This document shows positions 8,286-58,530 of a stretch of DNA of 64,000 nt, one piece after another. The translations under genes and the position numbers were made by a program. This DNA comes from Vibrio tapetis subsp. tapetis (GTDB lineage Bacteria; Pseudomonadota; Gammaproteobacteria; Enterobacterales; Vibrionaceae): the NCBI RefSeq assembly GCF_900233005.1, contig NZ_LT960612.1, positions 1,488,001 to 1,552,000 of the forward strand. The letters are read 5' to 3'. Numbering within the stretch: position 1 is the stretch's first letter; each line of letters opens with the position of its first letter. The notes beneath the pieces are model-generated. The model was not told where the DNA came from. It saw nothing but the letters and a program-made list of their open reading frames with translations, and made no database searches.

Positions 8286-9266
8286 TTGTCATTAGTGCTT
8301 TGGATGGCGTTGTCTGTAATTAGCGCGTGCCTACTTGACCGATTATTTGGGGAGCCTAGAAAATGGCACCCACTAGTCGGCTACGGCAATTATCTCTATT
8401 GGCTAGAGAAACGTTTAAATCTCGATGTTCTGCGCGACAGCGAGTTTGATGTCTCCCAAGCTCATCAATATAAAACCAAACGCCGAGGAATCATTGCTTG
8501 GTGTTGCGCTACCTTACCTCTTGTGATGATAGCGGGGGGGATATTTGAACTACTTTTCCACGGATCTTTTCTTCTCTATTGGATCAGCAGTACTTTGGTC
8601 TTGTATGTGTGCATTGGTCAAAAGAGCTTATTGCAACATGCTGATTGGATTCATCGGCCCTTGGTCGCAGGAGACATAGAACAAGCAAGAGAAAAAGTGG
8701 GTTGGATAGTCAGCCGAGAAACCAGTGAAATGGATGAATATCAAATCACCTCTGCCACCATTGAGTCGGTATTGGAAAACGGCAACGATGCTATCTACGG
8801 TGCTCTATTTTGGTTTCTTGTTGCGGGGCCAATTGGCGCAATTGTTTTTCGTATGGCGAATACTATGGATGCCATGTGGGGGTATAAAAACGCGCGTTTT
8901 ATTCATTTTGGCTGGTGCGCCGCCAAACTCGATGATGCCCTTGGTTATCTTCCCGCCAGACTGACCGCCATAAGCTACGCCTTAGTGGGCAATACCCATC
9001 TTGCGTTGAACTGCTGGAAGCAACAAGCTGATCACTGTGAAAGCCCGAACGGTGGCCCAGTAATGACCAGTGGAGCAGGAGCGTTAAGTATTGCGATCGG
9101 TGGCCCAGCGGTTTATCACGGCGTGTTAAAACAAAAGCAATTCATGGGGCGTGGCATCAAAGCTTCAGGGTCAGACATAGCCCGAGCGTGCCAGTTGGTT
9201 CAAAGCACAACACACATATGGTTGGTGACAATGTCACTTATTGCGGGCTTGTTATCAATACAATAA
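8286..9266 (+). CDS. cbiB: Adenosylcobinamide-phosphate synthase CbiB
   Basis: CbiB attaches the aminopropanol (phosphate) arm to adenosylcobyric acid at the inner membrane. The N-terminal hallmark LLDRLFGEPRKWHPLVGYG, several hydrophobic helices and the later NGGPVMTSGAGAL segment are typical of the family, as is the length (326 aa). The start is taken as TTG at 8286, because GAGGAA lies 6-7 bases upstream. GTG at 8295 or ATG at 8304 are alternatives but would remove part of the first membrane helix. Confidence 0.92.
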   Translation: MSLVLWMALSVISACLLDRLFGEPRKWHPLVGYGNYLYWLEKRLNLDVLRDSEFDVSQAHQYKTKRRGIIAWCCATLPLVMIAGGIFELLFHGSFLLYWISSTLVLYVCIGQKSLLQHADWIHRPLVAGDIEQAREKVGWIVSRETSEMDEYQITSATIESVLENGNDAIYGALFWFLVAGPIGAIVFRMANTMDAMWGYKNARFIHFGWCAAKLDDALGYLPARLTAISYALVGNTHLALNCWKQQADHCESPNGGPVMTSGAGALSIAIGGPAVYHGVLKQKQFMGRGIKASGSDIARACQLVQSTTHIWLVTMSLIAGLLSIQ

Positions 9267-9315
9267 CAACCGAAATAATCACAACTAACGTTTCGGATAA
9301 TACAATGGATATGAC

Positions 9316-10395
9316 ATGCTAAATCATGGAGGCAAGCTTCGCCAATACGCGAAGCAATTTGAACGCCCTTTTAATGAGTGGGTGGATCTTTCCACAGGCG
9401 TGAGCCCGTTCACTTACCCAATCGGGAATATCCCAGAACCAATCTGGAATCGATTACCAGAAGACGAAGACGGACTAATTGAAGCGGCTTGTGGTTATTA
9501 TCAATGCAACAATCTACTGCCTGTCGCAGGGAGCCAAGCGGCCATTCAGTTATTGCCTAAGTTGGTTTTAAATCGATACTTAACCTTGCCTAACATCGCC
9601 CAAGACGATGTGCCTATTTTTAGAGTGGGCTTGCCAAAGGTTGGTTACAAAGAGCACCAGTTAGCATGGCGTAATGCCGCTTTTATCTATAAGCAAAGTG
9701 GCGTGCTGTTAGAGTATTATTTTTATGATGGAGAGCCAGCGCCAGCCGATTTAGTTCAACTGGATGCGCTACTGGTGATCAACCCCAATAACCCATTGAC
9801 GGACAAATTCACTCCAGAGCAATTGTTAGCATGGCGCCGTTCAATGAAGCCCGATGCAGTATTGCTGGTGGACGAAGCCTTTATGGACATGACACCAGAG
9901 CAAAGTATCCTTCATCACTATGCGAGTCATTTCGGTTCCAAGTCGTTACCTGAAAATATCATGGTACTCAGATCGCTTGGAAAATTCTTTGGGCTAGCAG
10001 GGCTGCGTGTCGGATTTCTATTTGCCTGTCCCCTGATATTAGAACGGGCAAGGTCTCACATTGGGCCGTGGGCGCTAACGGGCCCTAGCCGTTTTGTTGC
10101 AGCCCAAGCATTAACGGATCACCCATGGCAGCAGCAAAATCGTTCAAGATTGCTAAAAGAAGGGGATCGAATGCAGCAGTTATTGGCGACTCATTTTTCC
10201 CAGCCACCTAATGGACATTTTCTGTTTTATACAGTAAAGCTCGATAACGCAGAAGAAGTGCATATCGCGTTAGCCCAGCAAGGCATTTTGACCCGTTTAT
10301 GTGATGAAAAAGACGCAGTTCGCTTTGGTCTACCAAAAACAGAGCAAGAATGGCAAAGCTTGGAACAAGCACTCAATAGAATTAAGGAAGTTTGA
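9316..10395 (+). CDS. cobD: PLP-dependent threonine-phosphate decarboxylase / CobC-like aminotransferase-fold enzyme
   Basis: The family makes (R)-1-amino-2-propanol phosphate from threonine phosphate, the linker used by CbiB. The 359-aa sequence has a fold-type I PLP pattern: DLSTGVSP near the N-terminus, a VINPNNPLT substrate loop, LLVDEAFMD, and the PLP lysine in RSLGKFFGLAGLRVGF. The position between cbiB and cbiA supports the assignment. CobC and CobD are close homologues, and the two names cannot be separated by eye. The ATG at 9316 follows a 49-bp gap. Confidence 0.87.
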   Translation: MLNHGGKLRQYAKQFERPFNEWVDLSTGVSPFTYPIGNIPEPIWNRLPEDEDGLIEAACGYYQCNNLLPVAGSQAAIQLLPKLVLNRYLTLPNIAQDDVPIFRVGLPKVGYKEHQLAWRNAAFIYKQSGVLLEYYFYDGEPAPADLVQLDALLVINPNNPLTDKFTPEQLLAWRRSMKPDAVLLVDEAFMDMTPEQSILHHYASHFGSKSLPENIMVLRSLGKFFGLAGLRVGFLFACPLILERARSHIGPWALTGPSRFVAAQALTDHPWQQQNRSRLLKEGDRMQQLLATHFSQPPNGHFLFYTVKLDNAEEVHIALAQQGILTRLCDEKDAVRFGLPKTEQEWQSLEQALNRIKEV

Positions 10396-25063: not shown

Positions 25064-26091
25064 TTAGCAGGCACCCGAATACAACGTCTGCGCCGCATTA
25101 ATTTTGCTTAACAGCTTTTGCCGTAACGCTTGCGGTTCAAGCACTTCTACAATATTGATGTGTTTGAGTAGCCACCACTCGAACCCATTGCAGTCGCGGA
25201 CGTTGGCTCTTATTACAGTATAATCTTCTTGCTCCTCGACAATGGTTTGACAGTCAGATAACTTGGTTTCAAACAGAATATGCTCACCGCTGTAGTTTTC
25301 GACTCTAAGCACAACATCCATGAGATTCCCGCCAGAGAAGTAATTCCAGTTGTTCTCAATCCATGTCCCTGTATCAAATTCGTTTTCATAGTTGAGTGCG
25401 CTAAAGCTTGTTTTTAACGACTCGATACGGTGGACTGCGAATGTTCGATGTTCATCTATGTCATTTCTCTTGGCCAATAAGTAAAAACTGTTGCCGTGTA
25501 AGGTCACGCCTAATGGAGTGACATCATATTGCGATGGGGTTTGCGCACCTCGTTTACGATACGACATGGTCAGAGTAAGTTTATCCAGAATGGCCCGCTC
25601 AATTATGTTGATATGTTCATTGTTAATCTCGGCCGGAAGCAATTGAAACTCCATTGGCGCGTAAGCAAAACGTTCCCGCCATAGACGCTGCTTTCTATCA
25701 CTTTCTATATTGGCGGTGCTAATTAACGCCGAAACTTCATGATGCATGCTTGGTGGCAACATGTTCAAGATTTCATGTTCAAGATTTCATGTTCTATCAT
25801 TTGAAGCGATACAACAGAAGACATCGCGCTGGGATTAATCGGGTGTGCTTCTCCGCTGCGTATTTGATAGCGGTGTGGGCGGCAGTTTTCAATCTTCTCA
25901 ATACAGGTGTGCTGCTCACATATGGTAGCCAGAATCCGTTGCAGCTTACGCATTTGAGAAGGGGAGTCGAGCTGTTCATCAATCAACTGGCAGTTCACCA
26001 AGATCTGTTTTAACTCAGTAGTGGAGATACTGTCTGGAGCGCATGGGATTGACTGCAACGTTTTTTGATATCGATTAAATATATTTGACAT
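25064..26091 (-). pseudogene. WYL-domain transcriptional regulator broken by a 14-bp tandem duplication
   Basis: Two open frames, 26091-25765 (108 codons) and 25768-25064 (234 codons), are the halves of one WYL regulator. The first part ends with IEHEILNMKS and then stops. If one copy of the 14-bp repeat at 25761-25788 is removed, the text reads IEHEILNMLPPSMHHEV and gives an intact 337-aa protein. The restored protein has an N-terminal helix-turn-helix region and a WYL domain near residues 150-240 (YDVTPLGVTLHGNSFYLLAKR). WYL proteins sense ligands and often control defence genes. It is divergent from the CARF-like gene, its probable target. Confidence 0.85.
25761..25788. repeat. Perfect 14-bp tandem duplication inside the WYL gene
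   Basis: ATGTTCAAGATTTC occurs twice in direct succession and is followed by a third partial ATGTTC. Since 14 is not a multiple of three, the duplication shifts the frame. Such repeats can arise and revert by slippage. Confidence 0.95.
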
Positions 26092-26209: not shown

Positions 26210-26926
26210 ATGCAGCGAGTTTTATTGGCGGTAACAGGTAATCATCCGCAAGTCGTGACTGAGACACTATTTAGTATGCATCAAGCTAAACAGCCGATGC
26301 CGGAAAAAATCATCGTTATGAATACTCCGGACAGTCGCGTTAATCGTGAGCATTACCTTCTCATACAACAAGGTTTAGAACGTTTTATTTCTGAGCATCA
26401 GTTAGACCCGATAGAGCTGAGTGAACAGTGCACGACTGGAACAAAAGAAAGGTCAGTTAAGCCCTGCCAGCGTCTTACACTGATCATCAACCCACGTAAG
26501 CTGACACTCAACATTGCTGACGAAGAAATCAAGTTAACACCCAAGTATTTTGCGTTCTATTCGTGGTTACTAAAGCGTGAATCACAAGGTCAGTCATTGC
26601 TCGAAATCGAAAGAGGTTTTGAGGACAATACCCACCTAGCGCGTGACTATTTAGATTCAGCGTACGATGTGGTTCGTGACCCTCGCTTCTATGGAACGTT
26701 TGGTATTGAAAGGGAAGACATTACAGACAACAGCTTGGGCTCGCTTAAAGGGATGGACAGAAAATACGTAGAGCAATGCCGTTCCAATTTGAAACGTAAG
26801 TTCAGAGAAGCGTTGTCGGCTGATCTGGCTAAGCGTTTGGAAGTTAAGTCAGGGAAAGTAGACAAAGTACACGCATGCTGGTTGAAACTCGCCGCGAATG
26901 ATATCGACGTTCAGTGGGCGGCTTAA
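26210..26926 (+). CDS. CARF-like (Cas_NE0113-type) protein with winged-helix C-terminus and missing CARF core
   Basis: The first 60 or so residues, with RVLLAVTGNHPQVVTETL and the following IIVMNTP, match the start of the CRISPR-associated NE0113/TIGR02584 family, whose CARF domain binds or cuts cyclic oligoadenylates. The rest of the CARF domain, including the conserved glycine-rich GGRKTM-type loop, is absent. After residue 88 the chain passes into a helical part (KLTPKYFAFYSWLL ... CRSNLKRKFREAL) like the winged-helix tail of longer family members. The gene is intact in frame (238 aa), with no cas genes or CRISPR nearby. It may be a domesticated regulator or a deletion remnant. Confidence 0.65.
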   Translation: MQRVLLAVTGNHPQVVTETLFSMHQAKQPMPEKIIVMNTPDSRVNREHYLLIQQGLERFISEHQLDPIELSEQCTTGTKERSVKPCQRLTLIINPRKLTLNIADEEIKLTPKYFAFYSWLLKRESQGQSLLEIERGFEDNTHLARDYLDSAYDVVRDPRFYGTFGIEREDITDNSLGSLKGMDRKYVEQCRSNLKRKFREALSADLAKRLEVKSGKVDKVHACWLKLAANDIDVQWAA

Positions 26927-28360: not shown

Positions 28361-29089
28361 TTATTCTGTTATTAATTCCGGTATTTTATTGAGACCGCTA
28401 TCGCCAATAGTATTTGCACCATCTATAGTTACGCCATCACAACTTACATAAACCTTGCCATTACGTCGGATTTGTGTACATTCCTCCGGGATTACTTCGA
28501 CTTCTTTTTCAACTATCTTTTCTTTTTCTACTATGGTTTCGACAGGGACTTCAACTTTTTTTATCACTTCCTTGATCAGAGGTGTTTCTACTGTCCATCG
28601 GTATAAGCGATAAATCCCTAGGCATAATAGTGCGATCAGAAGCAGCGCGATTATGACAATTAGAGCGTTTTTGATGCGGTTTCGAACGACTTGTTTTTGT
28701 AACTCCTGCTCTTTTTCAATAAGCTTTAATTTTTTTAACTCATGCTCATGTTCTTTGTCGAGTATACTTTGCTTTGTATCATGGGTTTTGAGCTGCGTAG
28801 AATTCGATGTCTCTATGACTTTCGTTCGAAGTTGTTCTGTTTCAAGTTGGTTTTTAAGAGCTTCAGCTTCTTCAAGAGCTTTAGTATTTTCCGCTTCCAA
28901 TCTGTGTAGCTCTGCTTCGTGCTTCTTCTTAGCTACTTCAATATCGTATTCTAATTTATCCAGCTCATTTTGAGGTGAAGAGGTTGGTTTTTCACTCCCA
29001 TCATCAGTTGGCTGCGAGCGGTTGTTTGTGCTCTCTATGAGCCTCTTCCTCATTATCGCGTTGAGATCGGTTAAGCTCATGCTGTGCAT
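28361..29089 (-). CDS. Single-pass membrane protein with long coiled coil and VEVPVE repeats
   Basis: Function not recognised. The 242-aa protein has a charged Glu/Lys-rich coiled coil at about 41-138, one membrane helix at 140-163, then a KKVEVPVETIVEKEKIVEKEVEV stretch (173-199) like the repeats of the gene upstream. A short tail follows with two Cys (ECTQIRRNGKVYVSCDG). It overlaps the previous gene by 86 bp in another frame. Starts at 29089 or 29080 fit, and neither has a strong ribosome site. Overlap and shared repeats suggest it works with the 551-aa protein in one envelope complex. Confidence 0.7.
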   Translation of the reverse strand: MHSMSLTDLNAIMRKRLIESTNNRSQPTDDGSEKPTSSPQNELDKLEYDIEVAKKKHEAELHRLEAENTKALEEAEALKNQLETEQLRTKVIETSNSTQLKTHDTKQSILDKEHEHELKKLKLIEKEQELQKQVVRNRIKNALIVIIALLLIALLCLGIYRLYRWTVETPLIKEVIKKVEVPVETIVEKEKIVEKEVEVIPEECTQIRRNGKVYVSCDGVTIDGANTIGDSGLNKIPELITE

Positions 29090-30659
29090 TTAAAAGTGCC
29101 TCTAGTTCAGCGCCAGTAATATCTGCTGGGACAGGAATAATTCGTTCATGGATAATTACTTGTGGATCCTTTATAAAATAAGGTTCAGGTTCTTTCTTGA
29201 TTTTTTCAATGAAGACAGGTACTTCCTTTGGTACTTCCACTATACGGTCAACCTCAACGGGCACTTCAACTCTTATCTCAATAGGAACTTCCTTTATTAC
29301 CTCAACCGTTTTCTCCACTTCGACTTCAACGGTAACTTCTTTAATGACTTCAACCGTTTTTTCGACTTCGACTTCAACAGTAACTTCTTTAACGACTTCA
29401 ACTACTTTTTCGACTTCAATAGGAACTTCAATTATCTTGTCGACTTCCACTTCAACCGGGATTTCAACGGTTTTTACCACTTCCTTTTCAATGGCTTTTG
29501 TACGGCGATGTGCCCAAACACGAAAATATTGCATCATCCGGTTATAGAGAGCTTCACGGCGAGTAGCACGACTTTCTCGAAGCTTTATTGCCGCATCAAG
29601 TTTTCGTAAGGTAGCTTTCTTTTTACGTAGGAGCCTTGACCTAAAGATGCAGACAAGCTTTTTCAATAGTTCAATACGAGTAGACTTGCGCTCCTTCTTG
29701 ATGGTTTTTTCTCCAATACGCTCCTTTCTTGCTTGTATGTTTTCTGGTGAGTCTAACGCTATAAACAAATTCAAAATGAAATATACCGGGTAAATTAGCC
29801 CTGATACTAGTCCGACAAAAATGCCAAATGGATCTTTTGGTATATAACCGAAAAGGCTTGCTGAAGATCGAATAACTTTTTCATATGCGGCTTTCTTCAT
29901 TTCAAAATTAGACTCAACACCCGCGTGCTGGTTAATTTCCTCTGTATCAGATAGCTTTTGCTCGCGAATGACCTTTAAAACTGTGTCGAGGTCTTCTTCT
30001 GTTTTAATTATGCGTTTGTCTAACCGATCGCGGTTTGAGTACAGATTAGGTAACTCTTTTCGTAAACGGTCAGCTTGATCTTCAAAGCTGGCTACCGAAT
30101 CGCGGCAGTCTGCAACGGCTGAACAATCTAGAGCTTTTAAGCGCCTTTCACTTGCAGCTTGAGACATGATATTGATCTTTTCGTTTAGATCACCGATCTT
30201 TGCTGTTAGCTCTTCACGTTCAGGGCGCATGAGCGTAAGTTGCTCTCGTAGGGTTAGCACTTCTTTTTCTCGTGTGTCCAAATACGCAGCATTATTTGAG
30301 TTTCGAGTTCTCACCTCTTCAACTTGTCGAATTTCGTGCGTAGCGAGGGATGATAAGTAGCTGTTTATACCTGAGTAACACAAAAATGCGAAAGCAGGAA
30401 CTAATATAAAAATAACACTTTTTAGAATTCGGCTGATCTCAGGCCATTTACTAATTACAGCTGACGTCCAAAGCAATACGGCTATTTCTGCACAGCCAAG
30501 AAGAATACCGAAAGGAGAAGCCAACCCAAACCATGGGTCGTCATGAAATAATTCATCGTAGCCTTTTACGTTAAAGGCGATGACCAAGAACCCCATCACA
30601 AGTAGGACTATGCGTAATAATGGGTGTCGTGGCCAATGTTTTTTTAATAGGTCAAACAT
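29004..30659 (-). CDS. Polytopic membrane protein with coiled coil and EV-rich repeat tail
   Basis: A 551-aa protein I do not recognise. Three membrane helices lie at about 13-33, 45-66 and 80-103. A coiled coil of some 150 residues follows (108-262), then a fourth helix at 275-301 and a basic segment (310-390). The block 391-490 is built of VEVPVEVEV and KTVEVIKEV units, and the tail is proline- and charge-rich. The coiled-coil section has two Cys (CSAVADC). The topology recalls DUF4407-type proteins, but I cannot confirm it. It starts on the stop of the lipoprotein gene (TAATG), so the two are translationally coupled. Confidence 0.72.
   Translation of the reverse strand: MFDLLKKHWPRHPLLRIVLLVMGFLVIAFNVKGYDELFHDDPWFGLASPFGILLGCAEIAVLLWTSAVISKWPEISRILKSVIFILVPAFAFLCYSGINSYLSSLATHEIRQVEEVRTRNSNNAAYLDTREKEVLTLREQLTLMRPEREELTAKIGDLNEKINIMSQAASERRLKALDCSAVADCRDSVASFEDQADRLRKELPNLYSNRDRLDKRIIKTEEDLDTVLKVIREQKLSDTEEINQHAGVESNFEMKKAAYEKVIRSSASLFGYIPKDPFGIFVGLVSGLIYPVYFILNLFIALDSPENIQARKERIGEKTIKKERKSTRIELLKKLVCIFRSRLLRKKKATLRKLDAAIKLRESRATRREALYNRMMQYFRVWAHRRTKAIEKEVVKTVEIPVEVEVDKIIEVPIEVEKVVEVVKEVTVEVEVEKTVEVIKEVTVEVEVEKTVEVIKEVPIEIRVEVPVEVDRIVEVPKEVPVFIEKIKKEPEPYFIKDPQVIIHERIIPVPADITGAELEALLNAQHELNRSQRDNEEEAHREHKQPLAAN
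29292..29387 (-). repeat. Two 48-bp units coding EVTVEVEVEKTVEVIK
   Basis: Residues 425-440 and 441-456 of the 551-aa protein are identical 16-residue units. The surrounding 100 residues are degenerate versions of the same pattern. The long Phe/Asn-rich open frames on the opposite strand are a by-product of this repeat. Confidence 0.8.
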
Positions 30660-31728
30660 TAATATGTCTCTGTGTTCATAAATTTATTTACATTGTCAGT
30701 TCGCAAGATATACATGTCGTCTCTTCCATAGTTTTTCATGAATATGTCATATAACTCTTTGTTACCACCAATGTACTGCCAGAAATATTGGTACTCTTTG
30801 TACATCTGCTGAATGATTTCAGGGGTATCAGGTTTACTTGGGAAAAACGGACGATGAAACCCGACTTCAGCACCCTTTTGAATGCGTTTCGTTGTCCCTG
30901 CTGCGTAGATAAATCCACATGAAGAATAGCAACGCATATATTTATCACTGTCTGTTGTCCAGTTATTATCATGAATATAGTAAGCAATTTGTAAACCTTC
31001 ATTCACTAGTCCGCCAGGGCTGTGTAGCATGATACGGTTTAAGTGAATTCCGTTGCTTTTAAAGTGATTTACGTATTTTAAAAACTTTGAATATGCCCCT
31101 TTTACAATTGGGCCTTCACCATATAGATAATGGCCATATGAGTCTTCGCCCAACATAAACGTTAAGGAAGTTGCATTTTTTAAAGGGTGCTCTAACTTTT
31201 TCGGAGCGCTTATATTTGGTGAAAAAATGGGTAACTTGGTTTCCTCAAAGCTAGGCTCTGGCTTCCATTTCCAATCATCTTGTTTTTTTTGTTTTAATGT
31301 GGAGCTAGGCTCATTGTCTAATTCAGGCTCTTTTTTCGGATTGGTGCTAGGCTCGGTAGTGGTTTTAGGCTCTTGTTCTGGCTTGGCGTTAGGCTCGGTA
31401 TTGGTTTCAGGCTCTTTATCCGGTTTGGCTCTAGGCTCGGTATTGATTTCAGGCTCTTTATCTGGTTTGGCGTTAGGTTCAGTGAAGGGGCTAGGGACAA
31501 TCGTAGGCATGGATTGAGTCTCAGAAAGATTATTATCACTATTGGTTTTTGATTTGATTCGCGATTCTTTTGAGTTACGTTCGTCGGTCGCTTTTTTGTG
31601 CTACTTGATGTGATGTCGAGTTGTCCAGTGGTGGTGCTATTGGTTGAATAGCTACAACCAGACAAAGCTAGAGATAGAGTGCTGGTACATAGTAGAAGGT
31701 GTGTTATAAGACGAGGAAAGTTCATCAT
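30659..31728 (-). CDS. ClpP-fold lipoprotein requiring a -1 frameshift
   Basis: Two frames join into a 356-aa protein. The first (from ATG 31728) encodes a lipoprotein signal with lipobox LALSGC (Cys25). The second, open up to 31600, encodes a proline-rich repeat linker and a ClpP/crotonase-fold domain like COG3904 periplasmic proteins. The fold shows NRIMLHSPGGLVNEG, the nucleophile region CYSSCGFIYAAG (second Ser) and the His in VGFHRP. At 31597-31591 the frames meet in ACA AAA AAG, so a -1 slip on A_AAA_AAG gives ...STKKATDERNSKE... as one chain. One lost A in an A7 run, or a sequencing error, would look the same. It is probably an envelope protease-like protein heading the three-gene operon. 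Confidence 0.72.
31313..31480 (-). repeat. Four 42-bp tandem repeats encoding a Pro-rich linker
   Basis: The 14-residue unit EPNAKPDKEPEINT recurs four times with variation (EPRAKPDKEPETNT, EPNAKPEQEPKTTT, EPSTNPKKEPELDN). It links the lipid anchor to the ClpP-fold domain and probably spans the periplasm or the peptidoglycan. Confidence 0.9.
31591..31597 (-). promoter_or_regulatory. A_AAA_AAG slippery heptamer in the frame used by dnaX
   Basis: In the upstream frame the codons are ACA AAA AAG CGA, so the heptamer sits exactly as X_XXY_YYZ. After a -1 slip the next codon is GCG, which continues into the long downstream frame. I see no clear upstream Shine-Dalgarno-like stimulator or strong downstream stem. 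Confidence 0.6.
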
Positions 31729-32028: not shown

Positions 32029-33485
32029 ATGACAGATTTCGACCAATTCGTTTCTCGTGCCAAAGGCGCATTACTAGGCTTAGCTTTAGGTGATGCGCTC
32101 GGCACAACCTTAGAGTTTAAAGCCAAAGACTCATTTGAACCCATTACCGACATGGTAGGTGGTGGTCCGTTCAATTTGGAAGCTGGGCAGTGGACGGATG
32201 ATACGTCAATGGCGCTTTGTTTGCCGACTCGCTTTTAGAGCAACGCGAGCATAATGCACAAGACCAGATGCAACGTTATCTACGGTGGCGCAATGAGGGG
32301 CACAACTCAGTGACTGGCCACTGTTTTGATATTGGTAACACGATTGCAGCAGCGCTCGACAAATTCGAGGCAACAGGTGAGGCTTACTCAGGAAGCTACG
32401 CTGGACATACCGCTGGTAATGGTAGCTTAATGCGTGTAGCGCCTGTTGTACTCTTCTACATGAACAACCACAAAGACTGCCGTAGAGAAGTGAACAATTA
32501 CGTGGTGTTGAGCTCAAAAACAACCCACAGTGAAGCTCGCTGCTTAAAAGCTTGTGAGGTCTTGTCGAACCTACTGCATGACATCTTGCTTGGCGAACAA
32601 GACAAAAACACATTAATCGATAACCTAAAGTCTTATCAGTTTGAATGCCCAGAAATACTGCAGGCCATTATGGATGCGAGTAACACAAAGACGTCACGAA
32701 ACGAGATATTTGGTCGTGGATACGTGGTGGACTCACTAAAAGCGGCGCTGTGGTGCTTTATGAACTCGGATGATTTCTCACAAGGAGCGTTGCTTGCCGC
32801 TAACTTAGGTGACGATGCCGATACAACCGCTGCTATCTACGGGCAAATAGCCGGTGCGTATTACGCAGAAGAGGGCTTACCTAAACACTGGCTTGAAAAA
32901 CTCGCGTGGCGGGAAGAGATCAGTCAAAAAGCAGAAATGTTGGCGTTAAATGGCCCGCAACCTGAGCGAAGTGAACATGTCTTTCAGGTAAGGCTTCGAG
33001 ACCCTGTAAAACAAGAGCCGCTTGAACCACAAGAGCTGCCTCAAAAAGAACTAGAAGCAATGGCAGCGAATTGCCCTGTTTTGGATATGCGTCAACCATT
33101 GACTCGCACGCAGATCTTGATGCACGTGCAAGCTTATTTTTGTCATACGTTTGATGCGCCGGAACTGGTTGTAACCGAATCAAGTAATGTGATTGAAGAC
33201 CTAGAGCGTTTTTATTACGCAAAAGTTGAGGGCATATCTCAAGATGATGTGGAGTATAAATCGTTTATTGGTGCCTTATCAGACCGAGGTTTAGTTGGCT
33301 ATTTGGCCATTTGCTATGAGTTGCCAGATACCATGGGCTTCGATGCCACTACCCTTGTAGAGCCTGACTTTGACTCTTATTTTGCTGTTGAAATCAAAGA
33401 CACCAACGATTGGGAAACGGTCGGTGATTTTATTAATAGCTGTATGGCGATCAATCAAGCATATCTTGCAATAAGCGCCAACTGA
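32029..33485 (+). pseudogene. ADP-ribosylglycohydrolase (ARH/DraG family) with a 1-base frameshift
   Basis: The family removes ADP-ribose from proteins, nucleic acids or small molecules using two Mg ions. From ATG 32029 (after CAGGAGAT) the protein reads [13 protein letters not shown] and [12 protein letters not shown], then leaves frame. The other frame resumes with ADSLLEQ and includes TAGNGSLMR and the second metal motif NLGDDADTTAAIYGQIAGA. Restoring one G (TTGCC to TTGGCC at about 32223) gives 485 aa. The last 130 residues are an extension I do not recognise. The rest of the gene is clean, so the loss is very recent or an error. Confidence 0.85.
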
Positions 33486-56958: not shown

Positions 56959-57059
56959 GGCAGAAAGGCAGAAAGGCAGAAAGGCAGAAAGGCAGAAAGG
57001 CAGAAAGGCAGAAAGGCAGAAAGGCAGAAAGGCAGAAAGGCAGAAAGGCAGAAAGGCAG
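56959..57059. repeat. Octamer tandem repeat (GGCAGAAA, 12 copies)
   Basis: Twelve perfect GGCAGAAA units run from 56959 to 57054, plus a partial GGCAG. It sits about 100 bp upstream of the sypP sigma-54 site, where an activator would bind, and 46 bp after the sypO stop. Such repeats change length by slippage. A 74-codon rightward frame crosses it but looks accidental. Confidence 0.95.
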
Positions 57060-57105: not shown

Positions 57106-58530
57106 TTAACGAATACGTGGAATAACCGTTAATACAGGAACGCCGGTTAATTGCTCTAATTCCTGACGAAGGCGAATGGAGGTATCGAATATTTCCATCA
57201 GCACGGCCAAGCCAACGCCGAGAAACAATCCAGCAAATAGCCCTGCGATAACAAAAACGATCGTTGGGAAGTTTGTCGGCGTACTTGGTGTATAGGGTAG
57301 ATCGATTATTTTAACGCGATCGTTTTGTTCAAAGATACCAAGAGAGCCAGTCAGTTGCGCCATTTCGTATCGAGACATTAATTCTTCGTAAAGGGTTCGT
57401 TTTATTTCAACATCACGAGTTAAGCGGTAGAGTTGTTTGGTGTTATCACCAAAATTGGTCGCTTTCATTTCCAGTTCATCAATCATGCCTTTCAGGCTCT
57501 TGGTTTCTTCTTTTAACGATTCGTAATTGCCTCGAGCAACTTGCAAGTTATGCAGCTGAGATACTAATAATGGTTGAACGCTTCTAAGCTCATCGGTGTT
57601 GGTTGAACTGGCAATATCCCATAGTTGGTCACTATTTAATCCGGGTTGCTTTTGTTGCAGCATGATGGTTCTTTCTTGTTCTAATCGATTCAATTCACGT
57701 TTCTTCGCTTGTACGGCGCTGTGGTTGTCGGTGTATTTTGCTCGCAATAAGGTGAGTTCACTGCGTATGTCGATTATTTGTTCCTCGATTCGACCGACCA
57801 CAGGGTTAGTTTTAGATAATTGCTCGTCAAGTGACCCCATACTTTTTTCAACGCCAGCTAACTCGGCTTGTTTTTCTGCCAAGCTTTGCTTGAGGGTCGC
57901 CAAGCGGCTCAAGCTTTGATTTTGCATATCCGGCGTCAAAGCAGAATTTAAGTTCGTGTATTGCGCCAACGCCTGTTCTGCCTGTTCAAGTTCCGTTGCT
58001 CGCTTTTTGATATGAATGGTTAAAAACTCACTCGAATCGGTAATCGAAGAGCGTTCTGGTGCTAATAGCTGTTCGATGAAATGTCGACTAACCGACTCGA
58101 GCATGGCTTTCATGCCATCTGGTGAGTTTGATGTGTGGTTGATTTTAAGGAAGTCTTTACCGAGTTGCGAGACACTCAAACTGTTTGATATTTTTTGAAT
58201 GACGCGCTCTACTTCCGCAGGTGACATGTCATCGTTAATTAACTTGAGCTCAGCGGCTACAGAATGTAAAACATGGCGACTTTTTAACAAGGTTTTCACC
58301 GCGCTTAATCTTTCGTTGAGCATGGTAGAGACCGCAATATCTTCAAGGAAAGGGTTCATTTTCGCGGTTTCTTGCAACAACATACTGGTATGAGAACGGT
58401 ACTGTGTTGGTGCCATTTTACTCACACTTAAGCCAATGAAAGGCATGATTAAAATGGGCACAAAAATAACGTACCGACGTCTCCAAGCTGCGCTTAATAA
58501 TATCAATAAACGAAATTTTAGTTTAGTCAT
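57106..58530 (-). CDS. sypO: Polysaccharide co-polymerase (Wzz/GumC family), SypO
   Basis: A 474-aa chain-length regulator of the inner membrane. Membrane helices lie near residues 14-34 and 438-462. The part between is periplasmic, with a long coiled coil (about 185-390). The C-terminal PTNFPTIVFVIAGLFAGLFLGVG region is the usual Pro-rich second helix. No cytoplasmic tyrosine kinase domain is fused. Overlaps sypN by ATGA. Confidence 0.88.
   Translation of the reverse strand: MTKLKFRLLILLSAAWRRRYVIFVPILIMPFIGLSVSKMAPTQYRSHTSMLLQETAKMNPFLEDIAVSTMLNERLSAVKTLLKSRHVLHSVAAELKLINDDMSPAEVERVIQKISNSLSVSQLGKDFLKINHTSNSPDGMKAMLESVSRHFIEQLLAPERSSITDSSEFLTIHIKKRATELEQAEQALAQYTNLNSALTPDMQNQSLSRLATLKQSLAEKQAELAGVEKSMGSLDEQLSKTNPVVGRIEEQIIDIRSELTLLRAKYTDNHSAVQAKKRELNRLEQERTIMLQQKQPGLNSDQLWDIASSTNTDELRSVQPLLVSQLHNLQVARGNYESLKEETKSLKGMIDELEMKATNFGDNTKQLYRLTRDVEIKRTLYEELMSRYEMAQLTGSLGIFEQNDRVKIIDLPYTPSTPTNFPTIVFVIAGLFAGLFLGVGLAVLMEIFDTSIRLRQELEQLTGVPVLTVIPRIR

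Follow-up and report, generated by a model that had tools for sequence, protein, structure and literature searches.

A recurrent three-gene unit of Vibrio tapetis with a ClpP-fold protein and two coiled-coil membrane proteins, and its possible role at the cell envelope

We analyzed a 64,000-nucleotide stretch of the genome of Vibrio tapetis subsp. tapetis (contig NZ_LT960612.1, positions 1,488,001 to 1,552,000; hereafter the window) and three genes within it that we call A, B, and C. We found that these genes recur together, in the same order, in distant genomes, that the product of A has a predicted ClpP-type fold with an invariant serine and histidine at the catalytic positions, and that none of the three proteins is named by a family in Pfam, NCBIfam, or PADLOC. 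The trio may be a protease module that spans the envelope and defends the cell at the stage of phage entry, a reading that we prefer tentatively and rate at rather less than an even chance.

Makeup, conservation, and spread of the trio

An initial annotation of the region had described an unrecognized three-gene envelope operon, and the list of open reading frames (ORFs) of the window bears out the three-gene unit, with A, B, and C all on one strand (Table 1). The junctions were also as described there, in that the stop codon of A and the start codon of B share one base (TAATG), the geometry behind the proposed coupling, and the B and C genes overlap by 86 bases when the longest C start is taken. 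Protein searches returned 40 relatives of B, 65 of C, and 54 of A, the window's own protein being counted in each, and DNA scans found 14 loci in organism-named genome contigs and one in a viral contig. After removal of seven duplicates (L044 and L047-L052), 21 non-redundant loci were left, the window included, and the order A-B-C on one strand was kept in all 21, so the concern that the trio might be found only once did not hold. Its hosts belong to several gammaproteobacterial genera, namely Vibrio, Enterovibrio, Shewanella, Endozoicomonas, Colwellia, Ferrimonas, and an Oceanospirillales bin. Since the loci were gathered through A or B, this recurrence demonstrates linkage of strong homologues and is not proof that neither gene occurs alone; matches to A were found only at weaker levels in five genomes of the order.

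Structure prediction and structure comparison gave the C-terminal domain of A a confident ClpP/crotonase-like fold carrying the motifs SPGG, YSSC, and FHRP. The nearest solved fold was that of a stomatin-specific membrane protease, and identity to solved ClpP-fold structures was 10-18% among the matches listed. Ser196 and His219 (Table 1), together with G166 and G167 of a Gly-Gly oxyanion motif that was kept in 38/38 aligned relatives, are residues that we take to be the counterparts of those in ClpP, from a reading of the motifs against familiar ClpP motifs and without superposed coordinates. The domain thus looks like a ClpP-fold serine peptidase whose proteolytic activity is putative, although none of the 11 Pfam families that any of the 38 A members matched at E 0.1 was CLP_protease. 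A lipobox-like expression matched 33 of the 38 relatives, the five others being the window's own ORF, P0113, P0122, P0147 (which has LLQAC), and P0148. The residue at position +2 after the lipobox cysteine was never Asp in the 33 matching proteins, and the +2 rule of lipoprotein sorting would place A at the outer membrane. Of the annotated ClpP-fold lipoprotein behind a Pro-rich spacer, therefore, the fold, the serine, the histidine, and the linker all stand, but in the window the lipobox and the protease lie in different frames. The name COG3904, to which the initial annotation likened the fold, comes only from the source labels of two A relatives, P0108 and P0117 ("COG3904 family protein").

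In the predicted structure of B (mean predicted local distance difference test score, pLDDT, 73), the hydrophobic helices at residues 13-32, 49-70, 77-106, and 277-302 were read as transmembrane (TM) helices. Residues 108-245 form a long two-helix coiled-coil hairpin with an invariant cysteine pair (C179 and C185), and the fourth TM helix is followed by a basic helix (305-385), disordered Val-Glu repeats (389-505), and a conserved C-terminus. The "four-helix coiled-coil" protein of the initial annotation is thus a coiled-coil membrane protein, as claimed, but its four helices are modeled as TM segments and its coiled coil as a separate hairpin. A topology with a periplasmic hairpin and a cytoplasmic tail is suggested, from sequence, by loop 1, by the segment that follows TM4, and by the cysteine pair. 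C agreed with its description as a single-pass coiled-coil protein, having one hydrophobic helix, an N-terminal coiled coil, and a conserved C-terminal motif, CTQIRRNGKVYVSCDG, with an invariant cysteine pair. No convincing solved relative of the B fold was found; the matches listed were long-helix proteins, coiled coils among them, and the best had E 0.024. Nothing of use came from profile searches of PDB sequences with A, B, and C.

The motif VEVPVE, which is present in both B and C in the window as had been noted, proved not to be a conserved shared tag; in near-strict form it occurred in 29/40 B rows, 5/36 C rows, and 0/38 A rows of the alignments. We rejected it as a contact tag between B and C, since it is poorly conserved in C and is predicted to face the cytoplasm in B but the periplasm in C, on opposite sides of the membrane, and the direct contact proposed on its account falls with it. 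In the A protein of the viral contig (L015, outside the A alignment), the linker begins with VEVPVEK repeats in place of Pro/Lys/Glu.

The window's A, B, and C fell below every Pfam and NCBIfam cut-off. Among the aligned proteins, any one Pfam family was matched by at most 2 of 40 for B (E 0.01) and at most 2 of 38 for A (E 0.1), and those few matches were coiled-coil, low-complexity, or stray. PADLOC gave nothing better than E 0.17 for A (283 amino acids), B, or C. Weak matches of A were to phrog_30575 of PHROGs (E 2.9e-6; unknown function), to PHROGs protease families (2e-4 and 6e-3), and to an NCBIfam ClpP-related head maturation protease (E 0.08). No description of the trio was found among the titles and abstracts listed by the literature searches. 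The fold of A is already known, but the machine is without a name in the databases and literature searched, where none of the three proved to be an ordinary member of a characterized family.

The distribution of the trio is patchy. By whole-genome search, B was found in 12/227 genomes of the genus, 13/296 of the family, 4/394 of the order, and 1/369 of the class, the last being the window's own (these sets overlap and all include the window's genome), and in 1/11 genomes of another genus. The G+C content of the trio was below that of its flanks in 18 of the 20 loci that have flanks, and L006 and L008 have upstream genes in common (clusters 5 and 14-16), as if at one shared site. Across 20 loci, the three proteins had correlated pairwise distances (mirror-tree r 0.77, 0.61, and 0.76; 0/2000 permutations; L055 and the seven duplicates left out), but shared descent alone would produce such a correlation. 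L055 contains two 306-residue transposase-like ORFs with an identical sequence start, one inside B (L055:6300-7217) and one just upstream of A (8665-9582).

We found no match to A in 50,697 phage records. In 51 plasmid records A had partial matches of less than 60% identity (26-32% among the 20 matches listed), and the operon DNA had one short plasmid match (75.8%). Viral scans with three different queries all returned the same single contig, IMGVR_UViG_3300035070_002905 of IMG/VR, which is 172 kb long and carries the trio at L015:2895-5459. A DUF805-looking gene follows C there.

Table 1. Positions of the trio genes and of features of gene A in the window
Feature	Positions	Strand	Description
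C	28361..29089	minus	242 amino acids; N-terminal coiled coil, single TM helix, Val-Glu segment (coiled coil and TM from sequence)
B	29004..30659	minus	551 amino acids
A, main ORF from first ATG	30659..31510	minus	283 amino acids; linker of Pro/Glu/Lys repeats, ClpP-fold domain (about residues 95-283)
A, N-terminal ORF	31318..31728	minus	136 amino acids; signal peptide, lipobox LSGC-S; stop codon begins at 31320
A as a whole	30659-31728	minus	spread over two frames
Ser196 codon of A	30923..30925	minus	ClpP nucleophile position; Ser in 38/38 aligned relatives
His219 codon of A	30854..30856	minus	ClpP catalytic His position; His in 38/38 aligned relatives
A linker tandem repeats	31322..31477	minus	42-bp unit (14 residues), 3.7 copies
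A AAA AAG heptamer 1	31591..31597	minus	lipobox frame; 3 bases past last stop (31603-31601) of downstream frame
A AAA AAG heptamer 2	31330-31336	minus	lipobox frame, within frame overlap

Reading frames of gene A in the window

While the B and C reading frames are open in the window, the signal peptide and lipobox of A lie in one ORF (31318-31728) and its Pro-rich linker and protease domain in another frame, which ends at 30659. The two open frames overlap by ~280 bases, the protease frame being open from about 31600, past its last stop at 31603-31601. The number of linker repeats leaves the frame of A unchanged because the 42-base unit is a multiple of 3. Among the other non-redundant loci, a lipobox-like cysteine and the protease shared one frame in 19/20; the twentieth, L011, starts 59 bases from a contig end, and the frame of A there cannot be judged.

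Two more genes nearby are split, one for a WYL regulator and one for an ADP-ribosylglycohydrolase, and all three split points fall within about 6.5 kb. A lesion or an assembly error is therefore favored for A. The frame that holds the lipobox also holds two A AAA AAG heptamers, which we take to be shift-prone sites, and frameshifting at A is a candidate only. The split may thus be a lesion, an assembly error, or programmed frameshifting, which are indistinguishable from sequence, and the window copy may be inactive, impaired, or dependent on frameshifting.

It is quite possible, though in our estimate short of even odds, that the module is dead or dying in this genome, through a decaying island or through assembly errors, an explanation compatible with any of the roles considered below. 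The cluster of three split genes and the single frame of A in 19 other loci argue for such decay, whereas B and C are open and conserved, the first heptamer stands in the lipobox frame exactly at the earliest point that allows a change of frame, and the 283-residue A product is present on 6 contigs, though these are possibly copies of one assembly.

The regulator (25064-26091, minus strand) has WYL and WCX domains and is divided into ORFs of 108 and 234 amino acids at a 14-bp tandem duplication (25760-25794); either a lesion or a switch may account for this split. The ADP-ribosylglycohydrolase (PF03747; 31906-33485, plus strand) occupies two frames, with the split near 32217-32238, and its homologue near the trio in L054 is likewise in two ORFs.

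Neighboring genes and the role of the trio

In locus L008, the genes A, B, and C, a small gene, and ZorA2, ZorB2, and ZorE2 follow one another at intervals of roughly a dozen bases at most, and a second Zorya set (ZorA1, ZorB1, and a partial ZorC) lies beyond (PADLOC). In L054, the trio and a small gene are followed after ~160 bases by relatives of ZorA2, ZorB2, and ZorE2 of L008 (48, 67, and 45% identical), Zorya being assigned here by this similarity and not by PADLOC. The small fourth gene (115-206 amino acids) follows C in five loci, next to Zorya II in L008 and L054 and without Zorya in L012 (12915-13304), L013, and L053. It has a conserved core, WGxG...GGxYxxVxxxNH, and its L008 copy reached no Pfam cut-off. 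The gene that follows C in L009 and L046 codes for a protein with a hydrophobic segment at its N-terminus and a GIY-YIG domain, identified by a Pfam match in L009 and by 49% identity over 98 residues in the L046 copy. Relatives of PD-lambda-1 lie beside the trio in L002 and L046 (cluster 11), and two neighbor proteins matched PD-lambda-1 in PADLOC. PD-lambda-1 has been renamed SNIPE and is reported to act from the inner membrane, cutting phage DNA as it is injected (PMC13190303). Zorya has been modeled as a sensor of envelope damage that recruits nucleases (PMC11890865).

Defence-associated genes accompanied the trio in 7/20 loci: L002 and L046 (PD-lambda-1, assigned through the homology cluster), L008 and L054 (Zorya), and L003 (AIPR/MzaE), L004 (McrBC), and L053 (DarG-like macrodomain), these three by sequence reading. 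As controls we used 20 random 12-kb regions from 10 genomes, in which a defence gene was found in 1/20 (a PD-lambda-1 relative, L074), or in 2/20 if mads_3 is counted (three members, best E 2.6e-47, entered as one extra control region without mapping). Not counted as loci were matches to AriA, mad8, mad2, and PDC-S57 in the controls and to dCTPase, PDC-S31, PDC-S57, AbiU, mad2, and REase_II in the test set. Enrichment of defence genes around the trio over random regions is thus suggestive at best, and the support that the Zorya II, PD-lambda-1, and GIY-YIG neighbors lend to a defence role, which the initial annotation had raised as possible, is circumstantial.

We propose that A-B-C is a self-contained, horizontally moving module. 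A would be anchored in the outer membrane as a lipoprotein, with its ClpP-fold serine-peptidase domain at the end of a disordered tether some 95-175 residues long, enough for the domain to reach across the periplasm. B would sit in the inner membrane with its hairpin reaching up into the periplasm and its long tail in the cytoplasm, and C would be its single-pass partner, with the coiled coil in the cytoplasm and a small disulphide-bearing end in the periplasm. The tethered protease would meet B at its hairpin and C at its periplasmic end; B and C would sense a breach of the envelope, and A would cut an injected or tail protein of the phage, or cut B or C as a trigger. A cytoplasmic partner, such as an operon-borne membrane nuclease or a neighboring Zorya II, would carry out the finishing step. 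The gene neighbors, the patchy spread, and the exchangeable nuclease at the inner face together favor phage entry as the occasion. The envelope-spanning proteolytic or sensing machine of the initial annotation accordingly fits the predicted layout and the ClpP-fold domain, but not an intact A gene in the window. A fuller version, which we consider doubtful, is a whole-envelope anti-phage system in which the outer-membrane-tethered protease destroys or reads injection proteins, B and C form an inner-membrane sensor pair, exchangeable GIY-YIG or Zorya II partners act on the DNA, and A in this genome is either made by programmed -1 frameshifting at A AAA AAG or switched off.

Several observations weigh against a phage-entry protease. 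The window's own A is split between two frames. A third catalytic residue is not evident, since D264 (25/38 relatives) and D265 (22/38) are neither of them fixed, and D187, D189, and D228 are invariant in the same alignment but unplaced in the active site. The N-terminus of B (Lys/Arg 2.1 versus Asp/Glu 1.7) and its loop 2 (0.2 versus 0.5) are not clearly positive. Three of the seven defence loci were assigned by sequence reading, and the contrast with the controls is weak and post hoc (0.02 or 0.06 by a one-sided Fisher test). At E 1e-10, PADLOC gave 19 raw matches (15 families) among 82 neighbors and 13 (9 families) among 82 controls, where the test ORFs were hand-picked from 214, minus the Zorya genes and GIY-YIG fourth genes, and the control ORFs were 82 of 100, so that the two sets were drawn by different rules. 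L005, L006, L007, and L045 lie amid ordinary genes on sequence reading. On the viral contig, phrog_2 (which we take to be the terminase), PF07068, and PF03237 found no match, although the PF07068 negative says little, its positive control having matched nowhere; the viral status of the contig is therefore the IMG/VR classification.

The main rival is a host protease for envelope quality control or stress signalling, to which B and C would present membrane or periplasmic substrates with no link to phage. We regard it as somewhat unlikely. It compares in principle with the membrane ClpP-fold protease and stomatin pair PH1510/NfeD and agrees with the closest solved fold of A; moreover, of the neighbors' Pfam families, the 25 of 82 that were listed were mostly ordinary (chemotaxis, metabolism, transposases), and the small excess of PADLOC matches over controls is what it would allow. 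The spread of B is too patchy for housekeeping, however, and neither the direct run into Zorya II in two loci nor the copy on a viral contig fits a purely domestic protease. Those same Zorya II runs, in which the trio, the fourth gene, and ZorA2, ZorB2, and ZorE2 lie on one strand in L008 and L054, could mean that the trio and its fourth gene are an accessory part of Zorya II and no system of their own. This appears very improbable, as the other 19 loci, L012, L013, and L053 among them, have no grouped Zor relatives up to about 10 kb a side, and clusters 17-19 are confined to L008 and L054.

The copy on the 172 kb contig raises a different prospect, that of an exclusion system against superinfection or plasmid entry, serving a phage or island against its competitors and not the host. 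The third ORF after C on that contig weakly matches T4 Spackle (E 0.0065), which would suit exclusion, but the match is marginal, the three viral markers were not found there, and with one viral contig from three queries and no A match among the phage records we hold it to be improbable.

If the whole-envelope anti-phage reading is true, the trio would be a proteolytic counterpart of SNIPE, and periplasmic proteolysis would join the known ways of halting phage DNA at entry. The three genes would also make a small system that can be transplanted, and single changes could separate its sensing (B and C) from its cutting (A). Even without a role in defence, it would be a conserved envelope-spanning unit outside the Pfam and NCBIfam cut-offs.

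Likeness to known systems and other features of the window

The likeness of A to ClpP and to PH1510-N (NfeD-type) lies in the fold, the SPGG motif, and, on motif reading, the positions of the serine and histidine; A differs in that its domain is that of a tethered lipoprotein without a Pfam family and has B and C as partners in place of a stomatin or an AAA+ unfoldase. PH1510 uses a Ser-Lys pair, whereas A has an invariant histidine.

UniRef names the B relatives P0009, P0033, and P0040 as DUF4407 (PF14362), and in two examples read, the DUF4407 order of TM helices, coiled coil, and TM helix resembles that of B. We rejected this assignment: 0/40 B proteins matched DUF4407 at E 0.01, the best place for B scored 14.7 bits (six genomes) against a cut-off of 31.3, and hhalign gave E 0.11 over the coiled coil only, without the TM regions (the DUF4407 alignment consisting of two proteins).

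Like the proposed module, SNIPE is membrane-located and acts at the entry stage (PMC13190303); its relatives adjoin the trio in two loci, and two trio loci add a GIY-YIG gene of their own with a hydrophobic N-terminal segment. A, B, and C of the window had no PD-lambda-1 match in PADLOC and no DUF4041 or GIY-YIG match in Pfam, and the fourth-gene GIY-YIG had no detectable similarity to that of SNIPE (BLASTP best E 0.069). Zorya II, which adjoins the trio in two loci, is also a complex of the inner membrane, with parts in the periplasm and long ones in the cytoplasm; the trio differs in being without a nuclease, and profiles of ZorA (MotA/ExbB), ZorB (MotB), and the other Zor proteins gave no match to A (283 amino acids), B, or C at E 1. 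The Rz/Rz1 spanins pair an inner-membrane coiled coil with a Pro-rich outer-membrane lipoprotein, which resembles the layout proposed here, and differ in that A bears an enzyme-like domain and the coiled coil of C is predicted to be cytoplasmic. C was not accepted as a spanin, matching phrog_3843 only at E 0.51.

Elsewhere in the window, the ORF at 26210-26926 (plus strand) encodes a 238-residue protein whose first 77 residues match the PADLOC CARF profile (E 6.9e-35) and which also matches Cas_NE0113 below the cut-off. Just outside the ORF at 57106-58530, a perfect 8-bp repeat, GGCAGAAA, runs for 12.6 copies at 56959-57059 and is a candidate for phase variation.

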